Positions 25,787-40,660 of a stretch of DNA of 40,883 nt are shown here, in pieces. The notes under the pieces were generated by a model. It saw nothing but the letters and a program-made list of their open reading frames with translations. It ran no database searches and was not told the origin of the DNA. The stretch lies in the NCBI GenBank assembly GCA_030600655.1, contig JAUVLP010000010.1:1-40883 (forward strand), in the 5' to 3' direction. This stretch comes from Candidatus Eiseniibacteriota bacterium. Lineage in GTDB: Bacteria; Joyebacterota; Joyebacteria; Joyebacterales; Joyebacteraceae. Numbering within the stretch: position 1 is the first letter of the stretch; the number at the start of each line of letters is the position of its first letter. The translations under genes and the position numbers were made by a program.

Positions 25787-26390
25787 ACCCTCTCCACCAT
25801 CGTGCTGTCTGAGAAAGCCTCCGGCATCTGCGCGAGCTCCGCCATACCAAGTGTCTCCACACCTGTAGAGATGAACGACACGATTCTCGTCGACGGTGGC
25901 CTGATCAATCCTCTACCTGTCGGCGTAGCGAGAGGAATGGAAAGTGATTTCGTGATCGCCGTGGATGTCGGTCGTGCGACCACGGGTTCAACGACTCCTC
26001 CGGTTCTGCAGGCACACGAGACAAACAACGACTGCAACAGGGACAGTTCCAGCTCTTCGGTGGGAGTGCAGTTGTTCAAGTCCCTGAGCGACCTCATAGA
26101 TACACTCGACATTGCCCCACTGGCTGCCCTCCGCCGGCGCTCCCAAAAGATGCCTCTTCCGCACGTCTTTGAGGTGCTCATGGCCTCGATCAACATCATG
26201 GAGATGGAGATCACAGAGACGCGACTCAAGACTGAACCCGCTGATCTGCTGATCGATCCGCCCAGCGCTCGGGCACATCGGCTTCTTCGAATTCAACAGG
26301 GCCGAAGAAGCAATCGCTGGGAGCTACCGCGCTACGAAGGATGGACTCAACGCTCCCCCCGATCGCGGCCGTTTCCTCGTGCGCGACTAG
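25787..26390 (+). pseudogene. Remnant of a patatin-like phospholipase gene (5'-truncated, frameshifted)
   Basis: Read in the same frame as the nucleoside hydrolase and starting right after its TGA, the sequence encodes the C-terminal half of a bacterial patatin: ASSAIPSV, then LVDGGLINPLPVGVARGM with the catalytic Asp of DGG, and DFVIAVDVG. The N-terminal half with the oxyanion loop and the GxSxG serine is absent. Near 26261-26270 the frame shifts: after LLIDPP the family-typical LGHIGFFEFNRAEEAI continues in another frame and ends at the TAG at 26388-26390. The longest single frame would instead run through unrelated sequence to 26614. Loss of the nucleophile and the frameshift make this a decayed gene. 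Its end overlaps the radical SAM gene on the other strand by 44 bases. Confidence 0.82.
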
Positions 26391-28735: not shown

Positions 28736-29341
28736 CTAGCCCTGCCAGTCCTCCGTGATGTATACCTCCCGCCTGCACGACGGACACAGAACCCTGTATG
28801 CATCCCCTCTCCCGAGCGGTTTGTCGCCACGCACCGACGGATCGGTCGTTGCATCAAGTTCCATGTTCAAAGCCGTTACAAGAACAGGATTGGCTACGGC
28901 CAGCGAGCCGGTCTTCCGCGCGATCCACAACAGATGTTCCCGTGTCGTGATCACTCCACCGCACGACTCGCACCGGACGAGTTCCTTCTCGATTTTCGTC
29001 ACGGCTTGTTCCCTATCGAAGACCGCAAGCTCGAATTTCTCATTCGAGAGGATGATGCCCTTTGTGGTTGTACAGTACGCCTCGCATTGGCCGCAATAGA
29101 TGCAATTGTCAAAATGGTGAACCAGTGTTCTGGTGTTACCCTCGTCCAATACGTCGATCGTCCTGGCTGGGCATACCTCCGCACAAGCCCCACACCCAAT
29201 ACAACCATCCTCTTGGAACTCCGGCTGTCCGCGAAAGGCGTCAGCCGGCTTCAAGGGGGTGAACGGGTACGAGGTCGTATACGGCCCCTTGATCACAGCG
29301 GTGATCGCTTCCTTCAACTCCCGCACCTTTGGTGTCTTCAT
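28736..29341 (-). CDS. mbhN: NuoI/HycF-like ferredoxin subunit of the membrane-bound hydrogenase
   Basis: This 201-residue protein has two [4Fe-4S] motifs, CIGCGACAEVCP and CIYCGQCEAYCT, as in NuoI, HycF and MbhN. These subunits pass electrons from the soluble donor to the small subunit. The C-terminal part carries two more CxxC pairs (CESC and CPSC) with the spacing of a zinc-ribbon-like knuckle, as in HycF-type proteins. AGGAG lies five bases before the ATG. It is the last gene of the operon; in Pyrococcus-type mbh operons the corresponding gene is also last. Confidence 0.9.
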   Translation of the reverse strand: MKTPKVRELKEAITAVIKGPYTTSYPFTPLKPADAFRGQPEFQEDGCIGCGACAEVCPARTIDVLDEGNTRTLVHHFDNCIYCGQCEAYCTTTKGIILSNEKFELAVFDREQAVTKIEKELVRCESCGGVITTREHLLWIARKTGSLAVANPVLVTALNMELDATTDPSVRGDKPLGRGDAYRVLCPSCRREVYITEDWQG

Positions 29342-29368
29342 GGCTGCTCCTGTCTTCGTCGATAGATC

Positions 29369-29707
29369 CTACCGACCGGTGTCTTCCTTGTACTTGTCGA
29401 CGATCGAGCCTTCCCACAGCTTAACGCCGGCAATGTGCGCCCCGCGAGCAAGAGCATGGCTTCCGGTCGGGGACGTCCACAGCACGAAGATCGCCGCCAG
29501 GAGCGCTTTGATGCCCATCGCGTTCCATCCTGAGTGCACGAGCACCCCGATAAGGATGAGAAACGTGCCGAGTGTGACACACTTCGTCGCAGCCTGAAGC
29601 CTGTTGTAGACATCGGGGAGTCGAATCAGTCCGAGCGCACCAACAAGATCAAACGTAACACCGATAGAGATCAGGATGATGGGTACCAGTCCTATCTGAC
29701 TACTCAT
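29369..29707 (-). CDS. mrpG: Mrp/Mnh cation:proton antiporter subunit G
   Basis: This small membrane protein has 112 residues and three hydrophobic helices. The first carries VPIILISIGVTFDLVGALGLIRLPDVYNRLQAATK, characteristic of MrpG/MnhG (and MbhC). The ATG at 29707 is chosen because GGAGGGGAGGGG lies just upstream and overlaps the end of mrpF by eight bases; a longer reading frame into mrpF is not needed. It works with the other Mrp subunits to exchange cations for protons. Confidence 0.92.
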   Translation of the reverse strand: MSSQIGLVPIILISIGVTFDLVGALGLIRLPDVYNRLQAATKCVTLGTFLILIGVLVHSGWNAMGIKALLAAIFVLWTSPTGSHALARGAHIAGVKLWEGSIVDKYKEDTGR

Positions 29708-29954
29708 CGAATCCCCTCCCCTCCAGGTACTTCGCCAGGGCCAGCGTCGCGATGAACGAAAGCAGGGCCCAGGCGATGGCAATGTTGAGATAGAAATCTT
29801 GACCGGTCACAATTCCAAAGACACCACAGATCCCCACCACCATCACACCGATCGTGTCTATCCCAACCGCCCTGTCGGGTGGCGTTGGTCCCTTTGCTAC
29901 CCTGTAGAGGCACATGAAGCACCCCATGATCAGCAAGAACAGGATTACGGTCAT
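29700..29954 (-). CDS. mrpF: Mrp/Mnh cation:proton antiporter subunit F
   Basis: This 84-residue protein has three transmembrane helices, and the signature KGPTPPDRAVGIDTIGVM defines MrpF/MnhF/MbhB. The start codon shares its A with the TGA of mrpE (TGATG), a form of tight translational coupling. The stop overlaps the start of mrpG. Confidence 0.94.
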   Translation of the reverse strand: MTVILFLLIMGCFMCLYRVAKGPTPPDRAVGIDTIGVMVVGICGVFGIVTGQDFYLNIAIAWALLSFIATLALAKYLEGRGFDE

Positions 29955-30457
29955 CAGTCGAACACCCTCCTCAAGGTAACCTCGAAGCGACCCGCGATGT
30001 CCTTGGTAATCGCCTCCGCATCCTCGAGATTCTCGTGGACATTGATCCAGTGTACATAGAGCCAGTCGTCGATGATGTCGATGGTCAGTGTACCCGGTGT
30101 CAGTGTGATCGAGTTCGCGAGAAACGCTTTGGCCTCGTCACTCTTCAGTGTCGTTTTGATCTTCACGATTCCCGGTCGGATAGGCAGGTTCGGATGAAGC
30201 ACTCTGTAGAGAACATCGAAATTGGCCATGACAATCCAGAACAGGAGCGAGATCAAATGTATTATCGCCCAGAACCATCGCACCGGACTGAAGAGCCTCT
30301 CCGCCCCCTTCGGCAGGAGACCCGACAGTGCAAGCGCAAACACCATCGCCAGCACCGCCCCCACAACCACTCCCTGCCAGTCGAAAGACCACGTCAGAAG
30401 CAGCCAAAGGACAAAGTAGATTACGAAATCCAGGAGCCTTCGCTTCAGTGTGTCCAT
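29954..30457 (-). CDS. mrpE: Mrp/Mnh cation:proton antiporter subunit E
   Basis: This 167-residue protein has two or three N-terminal hydrophobic helices (DFVIYFVLWLLLTWSFDW, GAVLAMVFALALSGL, FWAIIHLISLLFWIVM). A cytoplasmic domain follows with the MrpE signature KTTLKSDEAKAFLANSITLTPGT and DDWLYVHWINV. The ATG at 30457 has AAGGAG five bases upstream, so the longer frame to 30508 is rejected. It lies 16 bases after mrpD and overlaps mrpF by one base. Confidence 0.92.
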   Translation of the reverse strand: MDTLKRRLLDFVIYFVLWLLLTWSFDWQGVVVGAVLAMVFALALSGLLPKGAERLFSPVRWFWAIIHLISLLFWIVMANFDVLYRVLHPNLPIRPGIVKIKTTLKSDEAKAFLANSITLTPGTLTIDIIDDWLYVHWINVHENLEDAEAITKDIAGRFEVTLRRVFD

Positions 30458-30473
30458 CAGTGCTCCTTGTCCT

Positions 30474-32006
30474 CTATCCGAGGACCAGCTGGATATACTC
30501 CGCGCCATTCATGAGAGCGTCGCGGGCCGGCTCCAGAATATGCACCCCTATCACGGGGTAGAGGAGTCCGAACCCGACGCAGGCTATCGCCAGTAGGATG
30601 AGAGGCACATACATGAGAGCGGGAACCTCCCTTGCCTTCTCAACCAGCTTCGATACGGTCCCGTAGAGGATCTCGCGCTGGACTTTGATATAGTAGGCCA
30701 GTGTCACAAATGCGAAGACGATGGCCACGATCGCAATTGCCGTGTACCCGGCCTTGACTGTAGCGACCAGGATCACGAGCTTGCTCCAGAATCCGCTGAA
30801 TGGAGGTACTCCAGCGATGGAGAGCGCAGCCATGTTTGTTGTGAACGCCGTGATCGGCATCTTCTCTCTCAAGCCGCCCAGCTGCTTCATGTCTCTGGTC
30901 CCGGTCGCATGCTGGATAGCGCCGGATGAAAGGAACAACAGGGACTTGAACGCAACATGGTTGAACATATGAAAGAGGCCGCCCAGTATCGCAAGTCCCG
31001 CGATGGAGATCTGCCCACCGGTCGCGAGCACGCGCGCGCCTACTCCGATTCCCAGCATGACGTAACCGATCTGGCCGATCGAACTGTACGCCAGGAGCCG
31101 CTTGTAGTCCCACTGGCCGATCGCAAGAATGCCTCCGATGACGATCGACAGGAGCGCGAACGCTATCATAGCGTTTGCGAAAATAACACTGCCTGCACCA
31201 CCAGCTGCTATGCCGTAGACGTTGAAGAACACACGACAGATCGCGTAGATGCCCAAACTCTTAATGACTACACCCGAGAGCATCGCCGAGATCGGCGCGG
31301 GAGCCGAAGGATGCGCATCAGGAAGCCAAGCGTGGAACGGCACAAGGGCTGCCTTCAGACCGAAACCCATGAGGAAAAACGCTCCGGCAAGAAGCAGTCC
31401 CGGATTCATCTGGCCGCCAAATTGAGTCGCGATCTCTCTCGCCACGTCGGCCATATTGAGACTGCCGGTAACCGCATAGACCGTTCCGATGCCAAACAAC
31501 AGCATCACCGATGCAACGCTACCGAGGATGAGATATTTGAAGCCCGCCTCGAGTTCCTCGGCGCCGACTCCGAACGCGACAAGAGCATATGACGCGATCG
31601 ACGCTACCTCGAGGAACACGTAGAGATTGAAGAGGTCTCCCGACACAACCACCCCGTTCATCCCGGCAACCATCAGCATGAAGAGCGAGTAGTACTTGGT
31701 GAGGCCCGTGTATCTCTGCATGTACTTGATCGAGAAGAGGACACAGAGGAATCCCACCAGGTTGATCGCTATGAGCAAGAGAGTAGAAAGACCGTCGCTG
31801 ACAAGAGCGATCCCCCAGGGTGGTGGCCAACCTCCCATGTGATACACGGCCGCCGGCCTGCCAACCTGCAGCACCGCCATGATCCCCAGTATCAGCGTGA
31901 ACAGGGGGGCAAGTGTCTCTCCGCTCTTCTTCCACCAGAGCCCCAGAAGAGGGATGAGAAAGGCCGCTCCGAGCGGGATCGCAACATAGAGTGGTAAAGG
32001 GTTCAT
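30474..32006 (-). CDS. mrpD: Mrp/Mnh antiporter subunit D (NuoN/MbhH-like proton channel)
   Basis: This 510-residue protein has about 14 transmembrane helices and belongs to the NuoL/M/N-MrpA/D antiporter family. Key charged residues of the proton path appear in FLEVASIASY (Glu), GLKAALVPFHAWLPDAHPSAP (Lys), QWDYKRLLAYSSIGQIGY (Lys), and FHMFNHVAFKSLLFL (His and Lys). GAGGGGA precedes the ATG and lies at the very end of mrpC, with a three-base gap between the genes. Translation of this subunit is thus likely coupled to that of mrpC, which matters because mrpC carries an internal stop. Confidence 0.95.
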   Translation of the reverse strand: MNPLPLYVAIPLGAAFLIPLLGLWWKKSGETLAPLFTLILGIMAVLQVGRPAAVYHMGGWPPPWGIALVSDGLSTLLLIAINLVGFLCVLFSIKYMQRYTGLTKYYSLFMLMVAGMNGVVVSGDLFNLYVFLEVASIASYALVAFGVGAEELEAGFKYLILGSVASVMLLFGIGTVYAVTGSLNMADVAREIATQFGGQMNPGLLLAGAFFLMGFGLKAALVPFHAWLPDAHPSAPAPISAMLSGVVIKSLGIYAICRVFFNVYGIAAGGAGSVIFANAMIAFALLSIVIGGILAIGQWDYKRLLAYSSIGQIGYVMLGIGVGARVLATGGQISIAGLAILGGLFHMFNHVAFKSLLFLSSGAIQHATGTRDMKQLGGLREKMPITAFTTNMAALSIAGVPPFSGFWSKLVILVATVKAGYTAIAIVAIVFAFVTLAYYIKVQREILYGTVSKLVEKAREVPALMYVPLILLAIACVGFGLLYPVIGVHILEPARDALMNGAEYIQLVLG

Positions 32007-32009
32007 TGG

Positions 32010-32357
32010 CTATCCCCTCAGCTTGCTGATCACGGACATGTCAAAGGTCCCGTGCTTCTCGTAGAGCCGAATGCACATCGCCACCATGAGTGATAGAACC
32101 CCCAGGCCGATAACGATGGATGTGAGCACCATCGCTTGTGGAAGAGGATCCACGAAACGCTCAAGTGTAGCAACGGGCATGTCCGGTTCGATGATCGGCG
32201 CCACGCCGCCGGTCTTGTACCCGATGATGATGAGATACAGATTCACGGCGTAGTCCATAATAACTATGCCGAGAACCTACTTCACGATGTTCTTCTTGGC
32301 CACGAGACAATAGAGCCCCATTGTCAGAAGAACTACGCATAGGAAATAGACGGTCAT
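32010..32357 (-). pseudogene. mrpC: Mrp/Mnh antiporter subunit C (NuoK/MbhG-like) interrupted by an in-frame TAG
   Basis: The full frame would encode 115 residues. It starts at ATG 32357, which overlaps the stop of mrpB as ATGA, and encodes VYFLCVVLLTMGLYCLVAKKNIVK. An amber codon TAG follows at 32279-32277 (codon 27). The same frame then continues with VLGIVIMDYAVNLYLIIIGYKTGG, which is exactly the next conserved MrpC helix, to a TAG at 32010-32012. No frameshift is involved. An ATG at 32258 could restart translation, but it has no ribosome site and would lose the first helix. TAG ends many other genes here, so it is not a sense codon genome-wide. The gene could be truly broken, read through, or affected by a single-base sequence error. 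Confidence 0.85.
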
Positions 32358-32809
32358 GCTAGTTCATCCTCGATCATGGCCCTGAAGGAACGTCTACGGA
32401 AGATCGCCAGCGCCGAGAAGACCAAGAAGAGCGAGCTGGAAACCTTGAACGCTATGGCGATATTGAGCGGCAGAATCATCCCCGAACTCAAGAGCCGGAA
32501 GACTTCCCCTCTGCCAAAGGCGTTCATAAAGAAGGCACCGACTGTTACGCCAAACCACCCGATGAGCAGGAACGCGAGAGCTCCACCACTGTCGATGATG
32601 TGGGCTGCCTTCTCGGGCAACTTGGAGAAAGCCACGTCCTTCCCATGCGCCAGCATCGCAAGAATGAATGCGCATGCGATGATCACGCCCCCCGCGAATC
32701 CCCCTCCCGGTGTCAAGTGACCATACAGCACAATATACACGCCGAAAACGATGATGAAACCAACAACGAAGTCCGTGATCGTCTTAACGATAAGAGTCAT
32801 ACCGATCAT
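32354..32809 (-). CDS. mrpB: Mrp/Mnh antiporter subunit B (MbhF-like)
   Basis: This is a 151-residue membrane protein with four helices. The signature GHLTPGGGFAGGVIIACAFIL marks the MnhB domain. The ATG overlaps the stop of the preceding gene by four bases (ATGA) with GGAGGT nine bases upstream, and the stop overlaps the mrpC start in the same way. Confidence 0.94.
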   Translation of the reverse strand: MIGMTLIVKTITDFVVGFIIVFGVYIVLYGHLTPGGGFAGGVIIACAFILAMLAHGKDVAFSKLPEKAAHIIDSGGALAFLLIGWFGVTVGAFFMNAFGRGEVFRLLSSGMILPLNIAIAFKVSSSLFLVFSALAIFRRRSFRAMIEDELA

Positions 32810-33363
32810 GCGGCGACCACCTCCTCTTCCTTCCTCTTCCCATCTCTTCTCAACAGAGCCATCGCTCCGAGAATCGAGGTGAAGAGCACCGAGGCCTCAC
32901 CCATCGTGTCGTATGCCCGGAAATCCAGAATCACCGCTGTGACAATGTTGGCGCAGTACGTTGCCGGCAGTCCCGTGTGCACATACACCTTCGACACACG
33001 CATGACCGGCTCACCAAACTCCGGGAAGCCCCTGCCACCGAATATCATCGCCCCGAACCCAAGGAGCAACCCAAAGAAAATCAGTGATGTCACGACCGCC
33101 AGCGTATCTCGATGCGATTCGACCGCCGTATTGTCAAGAAGGATCGTCCCCCTGATCAGGATGATCAGTACGAGAACTTCGACAACAAGCTGTGTGATCG
33201 CGATGTCGGGCGCTCCAAGAAAAAGGAACGCGACAGACAGCGCGAAACCGACCGCAGCCACCGAGATCACAGCGGACAGGAGGTTCCTGGTCTCAATGGC
33301 CACAACCGATCCCACGATCATGAACACCAGGAGTGCATAGAGCTGAGGAGTGATATTTTCCAT
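32806..33363 (-). CDS. MbhD-MbhE-like fusion (C-terminal domains of MrpA)
   Basis: This 185-residue membrane protein joins two modules. The N-terminal part (about 1-80) is DUF4040/MbhD-like: NLLSAVISVAAVGFALSVAFLFLGAPDIAITQLVVEVL. The C-terminal part (about 125-175) is MbhE-like: YCANIVTAVILDFRAYDTMGEASVLFTSILG. In canonical Mrp systems both modules are the C-terminal end of MrpA, and in Pyrococcus Mbh they are separate small genes. Here they are fused to each other but separate from the NuoL-like subunit encoded just upstream. GGGAG lies before the ATG; the gap to the NuoL-like gene is 54 bases. Confidence 0.88.
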   Translation of the reverse strand: MENITPQLYALLVFMIVGSVVAIETRNLLSAVISVAAVGFALSVAFLFLGAPDIAITQLVVEVLVLIILIRGTILLDNTAVESHRDTLAVVTSLIFFGLLLGFGAMIFGGRGFPEFGEPVMRVSKVYVHTGLPATYCANIVTAVILDFRAYDTMGEASVLFTSILGAMALLRRDGKRKEEEVVAA

Positions 33364-33417: not shown

Positions 33418-35307
33418 CTACTTGCCTGCCATCTCCTTGAGCAGTGCCGTAAGCACTGCGAACACTATCGCGCCGAGACCGATGACGCACCACGCGAGGT
33501 ACGTCGACAGGACGCCACTGTGCAGCGATCTCAGTGCTTGAACAAAGACATCGCCGATCCGGCCCCCAACCACATGCACATCGAACACCTTCTGCTCGGC
33601 GTTCATATAGAAGTCCTTGAACGGAGCCATCTCTTTGATCGTGTTGTAGAAACCGGTCCCCGGCACACGCATTGCATCCATACGCTCCGGCGGCCTGACG
33701 CCACCCACGAAAATGCGTCCGACCCGGCGAGTCGTAAACTTGCCTACAAACACTACGACCAGACCCATAATAATACCAACAATGATAAGACTCGTCGCAC
33801 CCGCAGAATCCCAGAAGCCCATCGTGCCGGCGATACCATCCACCGATGCTGAGCCGACCGCCCCATGAACAATCGGGTCGATGAATCTGTCGATTGGGAA
33901 TTTCGCCCATACGCCGAAGAGGATGCAGAGACCGGCAAGAACCAACATCGGAACCCGCATGAACCAAGACGATTCTCTGACGTGGCTGAGCGCACTCGGC
34001 TGCTGCCCAAGGAAGGCCGAATACAGAACCTTAACGAACGATGCAAGCGTCAGCGCGCTCCCGAAGACCGCCACCAGAACGAAGATCCAGTACGCGCTGA
34101 ACCCCCTGTTCCCGAGTTCAACGATGCCTGAGTAGATCATCCACTTCGAAACAAAACCGTTAAAGGGCGGCACGCCTGAAATCGCCAGAGCCGAGATCGT
34201 CATCGTAATGAACGTGACCGGCATCAACTTGGCAAGGCCTCCAAGCTTCGATATCTCGGTCGTCCCGGTCTGTTTCTCGATAGACCCGGCCCCCAGGAAG
34301 AGGCCCGCCTTGTAGATCGCATTGTTGAGCATGTGAAAGAGCCCGCCGGCAATGGCCAGGGGAATCCCTGTACCGATGCCGAGTATCATATACCCGACCT
34401 GACTGACTGCGTGATACGCGAGCAGGACCTTGAGATCGTGCTGGATGAGCGCCATCATCACTGCCGCGAATATAGTCACCGCACCGATGATCATCAGCAC
34501 CAGAGACAGACCCGGCCCGATGCTGAAGATATCAAGGCTGATTCTCGCAAGAAGGTAGATGCCTAGAAGCTTGTCGATCGATGCCGGAAGGAGTGCCATG
34601 ACCGGAGTCGGCGCGCCTTTGGCCGCGGCCGGAACCCAGGTATGGAACGGCATTGCGCCGGCCTTAGTGATGGCGCCGATCATCAGCAACAGGTAGATGA
34701 AAGTGGACGTCCCGTCCCCTACGAATATCCTGAGGTGACTCATCGAAAGGGTGCCGTAATTGACCCAGATAAGAGCAACAGCAAGGAACAGCGCAGCATC
34801 GGAGAATCCCAGCATGAGGAAACTCTTGGACGCTCCCGCCGAGGCCTCGTCCTTCTTCCGGCCGAGATTGATATACAGGAAAAGAATTGCGGTCAGCACC
34901 TCCCAGAAAATAAGGAGGACGAGCAGGCTGTTCGAAAGCACCGCTCCACAGCTGGCTGCCACGGTCCAGAGTAGATAGGCATAGTAGCGCCTGCCATCGT
35001 GCTCCTTCTCGAGCCAGCCGATCGAGTAGATCCCTACGCCGAGACCAAACAGTGCTATGAATATTATGACAAAGGCACTGAACTGGTTGAGCAGGAGATC
35101 AAACTGAATGTCAAGGCCGCCAAACACCATCCAGTCCGTCGTAAGCGAAAGCGGCCACTGTCCGAATAGCTGGAGCGCCGCTACGAACGCCCACGCGGTG
35201 CCCGCGAGTGCGATCACCTCCCTGACACCTTTGACCCGTCCAGGCACAAAGAGACAGAGCAGGCCGGCTATGGCAGGGATAACTATGGGAACCAGAATCT
35301 GTGGCAT
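33418..35307 (-). CDS. NuoL/MrpA-N/HyfB-like antiporter subunit
   Basis: This 629-residue protein has about 16 transmembrane helices and is the second antiporter-like subunit of the operon. Functional residues appear in LIFWEVLTAILFLY (Glu), ITKAGAMPFHTWVPAAAKGAPTP (Lys), LIQHDLKVLLAYHAVSQVGY (Lys) and FHMLNNAIYKAGLFLG. The C-terminal 120 residues contain a long amphipathic stretch and a final helix, as in NuoL- or HyfB-type subunits. GGGGGA precedes the ATG and the gap after the large subunit gene is 18 bases. It should translocate protons or sodium, driven by hydrogenase electron flow. The combination with a separate MrpD is discussed in the findings. Confidence 0.93.
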   Translation of the reverse strand: MPQILVPIVIPAIAGLLCLFVPGRVKGVREVIALAGTAWAFVAALQLFGQWPLSLTTDWMVFGGLDIQFDLLLNQFSAFVIIFIALFGLGVGIYSIGWLEKEHDGRRYYAYLLWTVAASCGAVLSNSLLVLLIFWEVLTAILFLYINLGRKKDEASAGASKSFLMLGFSDAALFLAVALIWVNYGTLSMSHLRIFVGDGTSTFIYLLLMIGAITKAGAMPFHTWVPAAAKGAPTPVMALLPASIDKLLGIYLLARISLDIFSIGPGLSLVLMIIGAVTIFAAVMMALIQHDLKVLLAYHAVSQVGYMILGIGTGIPLAIAGGLFHMLNNAIYKAGLFLGAGSIEKQTGTTEISKLGGLAKLMPVTFITMTISALAISGVPPFNGFVSKWMIYSGIVELGNRGFSAYWIFVLVAVFGSALTLASFVKVLYSAFLGQQPSALSHVRESSWFMRVPMLVLAGLCILFGVWAKFPIDRFIDPIVHGAVGSASVDGIAGTMGFWDSAGATSLIIVGIIMGLVVVFVGKFTTRRVGRIFVGGVRPPERMDAMRVPGTGFYNTIKEMAPFKDFYMNAEQKVFDVHVVGGRIGDVFVQALRSLHSGVLSTYLAWCVIGLGAIVFAVLTALLKEMAGK

Positions 35308-35325: not shown

Positions 35326-36498
35326 CTAGAGGTTCTTCCTAAGCCATTCGGTCCTCTGGTGACTCAGCTTTATGAGATCGTGTCCGTTCGCGACCCTGCT
35401 TCCGTCAGAATCTATCGCGGCCATCCGCTCTGTGCAGCTATAGCACGGATCGATAACGGCGAAGATGAGCGTTGCGTCCGAGATGGTCTCACCTTTCACG
35501 CGCGGTCGATAAGACGGGATATTCAGGAAGGTCGGCGCTCTCATTTTGTGTCGCTCCGGCATGTTCGTACCATTGGAGCGGATGAAGTGAAAGCACTCCC
35601 CTCGCGGCGCCTCGATATGCCCGATTCCCTCACCCCTGGGAATTTCGCGCACCTCGTTTCTGATCTCTCCCTTTGGCAGCTTCTTGATGCATTGCTTGAT
35701 GATCTTGGTCGCTTCGATCATCTCAAGAAGTCTGACCACTCCTACTGCCAAGCAGTCCCCGTCGGGCTGGACTATCACTTTCCAGTCCACTTCATCGTAA
35801 GCACCATAGGATTCGTCGCGACGAACGTCGATATCGACACCTGAACCCCTCGCGGTCGGACCAAGCACCCCATAGGCGATCGCGTCCTCTTTGCTCAGAA
35901 TGCCGACGCCCTTGAGGCGACAGAGTATCACTGGGTCGTTGAGGATGACGTCTATAAGGAGATTTGTTTTCTCTGCGAACTCGTCCATCGCCTTCACAAT
36001 TGGCGGCCAGATGTCATCCGGGACATCGCGCCTGACACCGCCAGGGCAGTACCACGCGTAGTTGTTCCGGTTGCCTGTGATAGCCTCGAGTGCATCGAGA
36101 ACCGGCTCACGGTACTTCCAGCCCCACATGAAGACGGTCCAGTACCCAATAATGTGTCCGGCAAGGCCCACCCAGAGCATATGACTGTGGAGCCGCTCCA
36201 GCTCGTGGACAATAGTCCTCAGGTAGCGCGCTCTGTCCGGAACCGTGATCCCCGCGATGTCTTCCATAGCAAGGGTCGCCGTCCAGCTGTGTGAAGCCGA
36301 ACAGATACCGCAGATCCGCTCAACCAGGAACACGTCCTGGTCGAACGTCTTCTCCTCGGCCAGAAGCTCCATCCCCCTGTGGATGCGCCCCAGTTCTATG
36401 TCGGCGCTGACCACGGTCTCTCCCTCAACCTGCAGAGTGATGTACTCCGGCTCCTCGAGGACGGGATGAAATGGCCCAATGGGAATAGTAGTGCTCAT
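35326..36498 (-). CDS. mbhL: Group 4 [NiFe]-hydrogenase large (catalytic) subunit, NuoD/MbhL-like
   Basis: This 390-residue protein is the catalytic subunit. The N-terminal nickel motif is RICGICSASHSW (Cys 63 and 66) and the C-terminal one is DPCYSCTER (Cys 352 and 355), so all four Ni-Fe ligands are present; complex I NuoD proteins lack them. The enzyme makes or uses hydrogen at the cytoplasmic side of the membrane. After Arg 358 there are 32 residues (MAAID... to RKNL), the expected extension cleaved by a HycI-type protease. The ATG directly follows the TAG of the NuoC-like gene, with GAGGAG about ten bases upstream. Confidence 0.96.
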   Translation of the reverse strand: MSTTIPIGPFHPVLEEPEYITLQVEGETVVSADIELGRIHRGMELLAEEKTFDQDVFLVERICGICSASHSWTATLAMEDIAGITVPDRARYLRTIVHELERLHSHMLWVGLAGHIIGYWTVFMWGWKYREPVLDALEAITGNRNNYAWYCPGGVRRDVPDDIWPPIVKAMDEFAEKTNLLIDVILNDPVILCRLKGVGILSKEDAIAYGVLGPTARGSGVDIDVRRDESYGAYDEVDWKVIVQPDGDCLAVGVVRLLEMIEATKIIKQCIKKLPKGEIRNEVREIPRGEGIGHIEAPRGECFHFIRSNGTNMPERHKMRAPTFLNIPSYRPRVKGETISDATLIFAVIDPCYSCTERMAAIDSDGSRVANGHDLIKLSHQRTEWLRKNL

Positions 36499-38971: not shown

Positions 38972-40660
38972 TTAACCCTCTGACTTGATTTTCACGTCGG
39001 AGGAGGTCACGTCGAACCATTTGGTGCTGGGGTTCAAGGTCCAGACCATGAGCCCCCGCGCATCCGGAACATACGTGGGAACACCCACAAGCCCCGGCGG
39101 CATCCTGTCGGTCACCGTTGTAATTATGCGCGTTTCACCTCTGGCGGTTGATATCACCGTTATCGATCCCTGCTCAATGCCCGCCTCGGCCGCAGCTTCT
39201 TCAGAAACCCACACTTCACAGTATGGATTCTGCGTCTGCGGGAAACTCATCCGCCCTGTCAGTGTCCCATCCCATCGGTGAAGCGGACTGATGGTTTCTA
39301 CGAGTCCAAGCCCGTCTCCCGGCTTGCTCGCCGTTTTCGCGAGCGCAGCATCAACGTTCACATCCAACTCCTGGTGCGTAGCCGGCCCTGCAACGACAGT
39401 AATCGCCGTTCCTATCTCGGACGCGACATCGGCGAGCATTCCACCGACAGACTTCGCGTCACCCTGAGGCCTGACACACGCATCAAGCGATGTCGAAAAA
39501 CCAAACGATGGCGTGTAGCTCCCCTTGAACTCCGTCCAGACCGCCAGTGGCAGCCCGACCTCACTGTGCTTCGTGGTATCGTTCTCGAAGATTGCGGAGG
39601 CGGCGAGGAAGTCGAGGTTCTCCAGATCATCCGGACTGACTGCCCCGGGGTAGAGTTGCACGGGGTCAGGACCGAATACCATAAGTCCCTTGATGCGTTT
39701 GTCCGCGACGCCGGCCAGGATCTCGGCTGCCGTGCAGTCGGAGCTCACGCGCTCATATGCGCCGATGGTGTTCCCGCCCCGGAATAGCGGCGCGTACTTG
39801 CCACCCGCTGCCGACGCGAGCTTGGCTGCGAGCATGCCCGTCAGATAACCAGACGTTGAATCGCCAAGCCTCGACGAGACTACAACCACGACCTTGTGGA
39901 AGTTACGGAGCCTTGTGGCCACTCTCTCGAGTCCGACCTTCGACATCCCACCCGCTGCGGCAGCCGCCTCGATATCCACCTGCGGCGAGCCTTGTACGTT
40001 CATGGCCTTGAGCAGACCGGCCAGAATGAGTGGCTCGCTCCCGACCGGCGGTTCGATGTGCAGGTCGGCAAACCAGTCTGTGTTGGAGCGGTATGGATTG
40101 ATGGTGATAATCTGATTGGATCTGCTCTTGTGCCTCGCCTCGATGATGCGTTTCGATACAGTTGGGTGCCCCCAGAACACGTCGCCGATCAGGACAAAGC
40201 AGTCCGCTTCGTCGAGATCCTCCGGCGTCGCGTTGCCGATTCCGCCGCCCGTGAGCAGTCCGTAGTCGTTGCCGTCGTAGGCAACACCTATGTTTGTGGT
40301 GCCAAGAACGTGTGTAGCAAAACCCACGGCTGCCTCGTAGTCCTCGTTCGAGAGCTCCGTCCCGACGATGACGCCTAGCGCACCCGCACCGTGCTCTTTC
40401 TTTATCTCGTCTATTCTCCCGGCCATCTTCGTCACCGCAACAGGCCACGGCACTCTCCGGCGGTTCACTGTCGCCGCAAGGAATCGCTTTGGGTGAAGAA
40501 GTATCTCGAGGTTGTAGTGCCCTCTGGCGCAGAGCGCACCACGGGCCAGAGGCGACTCCTCATCGAAGTCCACCCTCACGGGCACCCCCTGGTCGACCTC
40601 CACGCTGAACCCACACTGGAGGGAGCAGATGAGACAAGACGCCTTTCTAATCTCTGGCAT
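38972..40660 (-). CDS. Molybdopterin-oxidoreductase/NuoG-like subunit, no catalytic Cys/Sec seen
   Basis: This 562-residue protein begins with a [4Fe-4S] motif CLICSLQC (Cys 9, 12, 16) plus Cys 44 in GALCARGH. The bis-MGD-type core follows with EDYEAAVGFATHVLGTTNIG, DEADCFVLIGDVFWGHPTVSKRI and INPYRSNTDWFAD, and it has a C-terminal cap like other DMSO-reductase family members (NPYCEVWVSEEAAAEAG, PPGLVGVP). In formate dehydrogenases a Cys or Sec lies where this protein reads AYDGNDYGLLTGG; none is present, nor is there an in-frame TGA. It may thus be an electron-transfer subunit like NuoG, or bind cofactor for another reaction. AGGGGA precedes the ATG. The next gene upstream encodes a flavoprotein. 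Confidence 0.85.
   Translation of the reverse strand: MPEIRKASCLICSLQCGFSVEVDQGVPVRVDFDEESPLARGALCARGHYNLEILLHPKRFLAATVNRRRVPWPVAVTKMAGRIDEIKKEHGAGALGVIVGTELSNEDYEAAVGFATHVLGTTNIGVAYDGNDYGLLTGGGIGNATPEDLDEADCFVLIGDVFWGHPTVSKRIIEARHKSRSNQIITINPYRSNTDWFADLHIEPPVGSEPLILAGLLKAMNVQGSPQVDIEAAAAAGGMSKVGLERVATRLRNFHKVVVVVSSRLGDSTSGYLTGMLAAKLASAAGGKYAPLFRGGNTIGAYERVSSDCTAAEILAGVADKRIKGLMVFGPDPVQLYPGAVSPDDLENLDFLAASAIFENDTTKHSEVGLPLAVWTEFKGSYTPSFGFSTSLDACVRPQGDAKSVGGMLADVASEIGTAITVVAGPATHQELDVNVDAALAKTASKPGDGLGLVETISPLHRWDGTLTGRMSFPQTQNPYCEVWVSEEAAAEAGIEQGSITVISTARGETRIITTVTDRMPPGLVGVPTYVPDARGLMVWTLNPSTKWFDVTSSDVKIKSEG

Follow-up and report, generated by a model that had tools for sequence, protein, structure and literature searches.

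A private in-frame TAG codon in mrpC of a membrane-bound [NiFe]-hydrogenase/Mrp operon, probably a wrong consensus base or a very recent nonsense mutation

It has been reported that MrpC consists of three helices, of which helices 2 and 3 lie in the hydrated ion path (PMC9568556), and, according to a review, Mrp activity generally depends on every one of the subunits (PMC5703873). Related modules are joined to other enzymes in Thermococcus onnurineus, whose Fdh2-Mfh2-Mnh2 clusters are made up of formate dehydrogenase, membrane hydrogenase and Na+/H+ antiporter modules (PMC8965080). A literature search for Eisenbacteria together with membrane-bound hydrogenase found no papers. The window analysed here, i.e., the whole stretch of 40,883 nucleotides of contig JAUVLP010000010.1 from a Candidatus Eiseniibacteriota bacterium, contains a gene cluster with the following members:

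28736-30508, minus strand: mrpE, mrpF, mrpG and a NuoI/HycF-type ferredoxin gene, all intact
30474-32006, minus strand: mrpD-type antiporter subunit, intact; its ATG at 32006 lies three bases after the mrpC terminator
32010-32357, minus strand: mrpC/mbhG-type gene (NuoK/MrpC family), 115 codons plus a TAG terminator, interrupted at codon 27
32354-32809, minus strand: mrpB (MnhB domain), intact; ATGA overlap with mrpC at 32357-32354
32806-33363, minus strand: MbhD/MbhE-type subunit, equivalent of the C-terminal part of MrpA
33418-35307, minus strand: NuoL/MrpA-N-type antiporter subunit, intact
35326-36498, minus strand: NuoD/[NiFe] group 4 hydrogenase large subunit (PF00346, PF00374), with the CxxC motifs ERICGICSASH and DPCYSCTERM

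Further members of the cluster are NuoB, NuoC and NuoH homologues, an FeS subunit and a molybdopterin-family subunit. It can be seen that MbhDE and MrpB, C, D, E, F and G are clustered with homologues of NuoB, C, D, H and I, the gene content of an MBH/MBS-type complex with an Mrp module, and that the sequence of the 390-aa large subunit holds the CGIC and CYSC motifs of [NiFe] ligation. An intact same-genus orthologue of mrpC matches chain G of the P. furiosus MBS (6U8Y) and MBH (6CFW), and also subunit C of Mrp antiporters. Because of these family matches and the neighbouring genes, the cluster is assigned to a membrane-bound group 4 [NiFe] hydrogenase with an Mrp module. At 562 aa, the molybdopterin-family subunit (38972-40660, minus strand) is short, and visual inspection gave no obvious Cys/Sec-His motif of an active site. 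Formate dehydrogenase alpha is its best NCBIfam match, with a score far below the cut-off, and its substrate may be something other than formate. The hydrogenase module is adjoined by two large subunits of antiporter type, one NuoL-like (33418-35307) and one MrpD-like (30474-32006, both minus strand), an arrangement retained in relatives; to our knowledge, the P. furiosus MBH is without an MrpA-N equivalent.

Within mrpC, the following parts are distinguished:

32280-32357, minus strand: piece before the stop, 26 codons, covering the first transmembrane helix only (translation; MrpC topology of PMC9568556)
32277-32279, minus strand: in-frame TAG, codon 27; Lys (AAG/AAA) in 17/17 same-family relatives with the gene
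32010-32258, minus strand: ORF from a possible restart ATG, 82 codons, lacking helix 1 and the start of helix 2, with no Shine-Dalgarno-like sequence

The preliminary description, which placed a TAG at codon 27 of mrpC (32279-32277) with the same frame continuing behind it, is correct in both coordinates and substance, and the tight fit of the gene to its neighbours that it pointed out, by the ATGA overlap with mrpB and the three bases to mrpD, agrees with the coordinates above. Read on the minus strand from 32357 to 32010, the gene translates as MTVYFLCVVLLTMGLYCLVAKKNIVK, a stop, then VLGIVIMDYAVNLYL and onward to KLRG and the terminal stop; past codon 27 the frame is intact and conserved until it ends with TAG at 32012-32010. 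Translated through the stop, it shares 91-96% identity with the intact mrpC of four same-genus genomes, and a profile search gives a PF00420 match that runs through the stop (1.8e-23, positions 2-94 of 95), so that mrpC is not just a frame left open by chance. Only in this genome is the three-helix MrpC interrupted, by the TAG at codon 27.

The family comprises 19 other genomes, 17 of which carry mrpC at 80-96% identity. No internal stop was found in any of these 17 genes, and codon 27 encodes Lys in all of them, as AAG in 16 and AAA in one; the absence of the stop from all relatives, which the preliminary description had proposed as the sign of a private mutation, thus came out as such, and the TAG is private to this genome. 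Among the source codons suggested there (CAG, AAG, TTG and TGG), AAG is the one that the relatives have; AAG to TAG is one substitution, A to T. Outside the family the position is occupied by Lys, Ile or Leu, and is thus not an invariant catalytic residue. Compared with the four same-genus genomes, the TAG is the sole private difference of mrpC at the amino-acid level, beside three private synonymous changes, and the nonsynonymous/synonymous ratio of 0.33-0.42 lies inside the range of the neighbouring genes. Since the stop is the only private amino-acid-level difference, mrpC is without signs of decay, and an old pseudogene, with several lesions or relaxed constraint, was rejected on the same ground. 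With no other private amino-acid change and a ratio like that of the neighbours, either there has been no time for decay or the lesion never existed. Some relatives (seven genomes) have a second, more distant MrpC homologue in another cluster, with 40-43% identity in six of them and 22% in the seventh; this copy is absent from the present genome.

These comparisons suggest that the TAG is one private A-to-T change and that mrpC, as part of a membrane-bound [NiFe]-hydrogenase/Mrp operon, is otherwise normal and was under constraint until recently. The change would be either a wrong consensus base in a draft metagenome-assembled genome (MAG) or a nonsense mutation that arose very recently in the population sampled, a reading to which we assign a probability of roughly 94%. 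Of the four options in the preliminary description, this retains the private null mutation and the base or assembly error, while stop-codon read-through and a two-piece MrpC are not supported; the genetic code is standard.

A further possibility is decay of the whole operon in this lineage, with mrpC as one among several lesions. The neighbouring patatin-like gene is indeed a true private pseudogene, but the remaining genes of the operon have their full length and show nonsynonymous/synonymous ratios as in the relatives, and mrpC has no private amino-acid change besides the stop, which leaves operon decay a negligible chance. The patatin-like phospholipase gene (25787-26387, plus strand) carries, unlike mrpC, several lesions: the N-terminal half, which holds the serine motif, falls within a loss of about 440 bp, and a 4-bp GATC duplication near the 3' end causes a frameshift, whereas two same-genus genomes have the gene intact, at 325 and about 320 aa. 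It is the only comparable lesion among the other real window genes that were compared with close relatives. This true private pseudogene in the window means that the lineage does lose genes, which counts against the reading of an error or a very recent mutation. Other apparent stops in the window were rejected as over-extended N-termini, as lying at the very C-terminal end (one case) or as antisense ORFs; those in transketolase, HflX and other genes come from over-extended upstream frames. A codon-usage scan for split genes, run over 480 kb of the genome, did not have the power to part them from antisense frames or adjacent genes; domain counts and orthologue comparison were used in its place, with the genome sampled in stretches.

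The preliminary description also listed a two-piece MrpC with a restart at ATG 32258; the pieces would be a 26-residue peptide with helix 1 and the part translated from the restart. This ATG is in frame 18 bases past the TAG, and termination-reinitiation is possible in principle; nevertheless, it is an ancestral Met codon conserved in relatives with intact genes, and for this reason it is not an adaptation. In addition, no Shine-Dalgarno-like sequence lies upstream of it, the second piece would start inside helix 2, and a split mrpC occurs in no relative, so that the proposal has found no positive evidence and a two-piece MrpC is considered very unlikely.

Reading of the TAG as an amino acid, by a suppressor tRNA, pyrrolysine or UAG-selenocysteine, would give a full-length MrpC, in keeping with the conserved frame beyond the stop. 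The tRNA set, with 44 matches of which 43 were called by ARAGORN, is incomplete and leaves room for an unassembled suppressor, but no CUA anticodon, for which the preliminary description had suggested looking, is present among the 43 tRNAs. Trp, Asn and Ile are the tRNAs not found among the 43, probably through assembly gaps despite the estimated completeness of 99.4%. The incompleteness is largely immaterial because of the use of TAG as terminator: it ends 12 of the 16 operon-region genes examined, mrpC itself included, often at the identical codon position where several relatives have TAA or TGA. TAG at the ends of long ORFs (164 of 352) is a mechanical count, which was replaced by this comparison of terminators at orthologous positions. 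Release factor 1 is present and intact (535 bits); UAG has thus not been dropped as a terminator nor RF1 lost or altered, and reassignment was rejected. A pyrrolysine system was likewise rejected: PylS gave no match above the cut-off, and similar weak matches occur in most control genomes. The RNA structure 3' of the TAG is weakly more stable than shuffles (z -1.9), which is not evidence. Together with the Lys codon, never a stop, in the same-family relatives, the intact RF1 and the usual role of TAG as terminator contradict the read-through or suppressor option, which is regarded as extremely improbable, and the TAG does not point to an altered genetic code. There is hardly any chance of a real TAG that has become fixed in the species and is suppressed at this one site by context-dependent read-through, yielding a single-copy pump subunit at a low level.

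Within the preferred reading, a wrong consensus base (about 55%) stands against a recent true mutation, fixed or polymorphic (about 45%). The assembly is a draft of 248 contigs (99.4% complete), and the named relatives found in public genomes are all MAGs; several of the nearest are labelled Candidatus Eisenbacteria or Effluviviaceae. No internal stops were found in 32 ABC, 22 radical-SAM and 21 response-regulator domains of the genome; the assembly is on this account not grossly error-prone, which somewhat favours a true mutation, yet a single wrong base in such a draft would still be unremarkable. Meanwhile, a profile search found no second MrpC/NuoK (PF00420) gene that could serve as a backup paralogue, and no other Mrp-type antiporter subunits were found, the only two PF00361 genes of the genome both lying in this operon. 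A fixed null would for these reasons probably be costly, which tips the balance slightly towards an error or a minor variant. Should the base be real, translation would end after 26 residues and one transmembrane helix, a product that should be inactive; there would be no working MrpC, and the complex would be expected to be inactive or unassembled. A fixed null would deprive the genome of its only pump of the Mrp/MBH kind, and a real base would be a natural null of the only such pump found in it, of use as a population-genetic marker at most. If the base is an error, it would warn against taking lone in-frame stops in draft metagenome genomes for recoding. In either case the mrpC stop is ordinary and opens no new question.

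Compared with known systems, this mrpC resembles MrpC/MnhC and MbhG/MbsG (PF00420; 6CFW and 6U8Y chain G) in homology over the full length across the stop and in the MrpB-MrpC-MrpD order, but the aligned archaeal chains G of P. furiosus MBH and MBS have Ile or Leu where it has the stop. As in the T. onnurineus Fdh2-Mfh2-Mnh2 clusters, a molybdopterin-family subunit, group 4 [NiFe] hydrogenase modules and an Mrp module are clustered together (PMC8965080), whereas the present cluster is bacterial, with Candidatus Eisenbacteria-type relatives, and its molybdopterin subunit has 562 aa. The lesion itself is like the private nonsense mutations and consensus errors of MAGs, with one substitution, absence in all relatives and no other decay, and differs from them in nothing notable.
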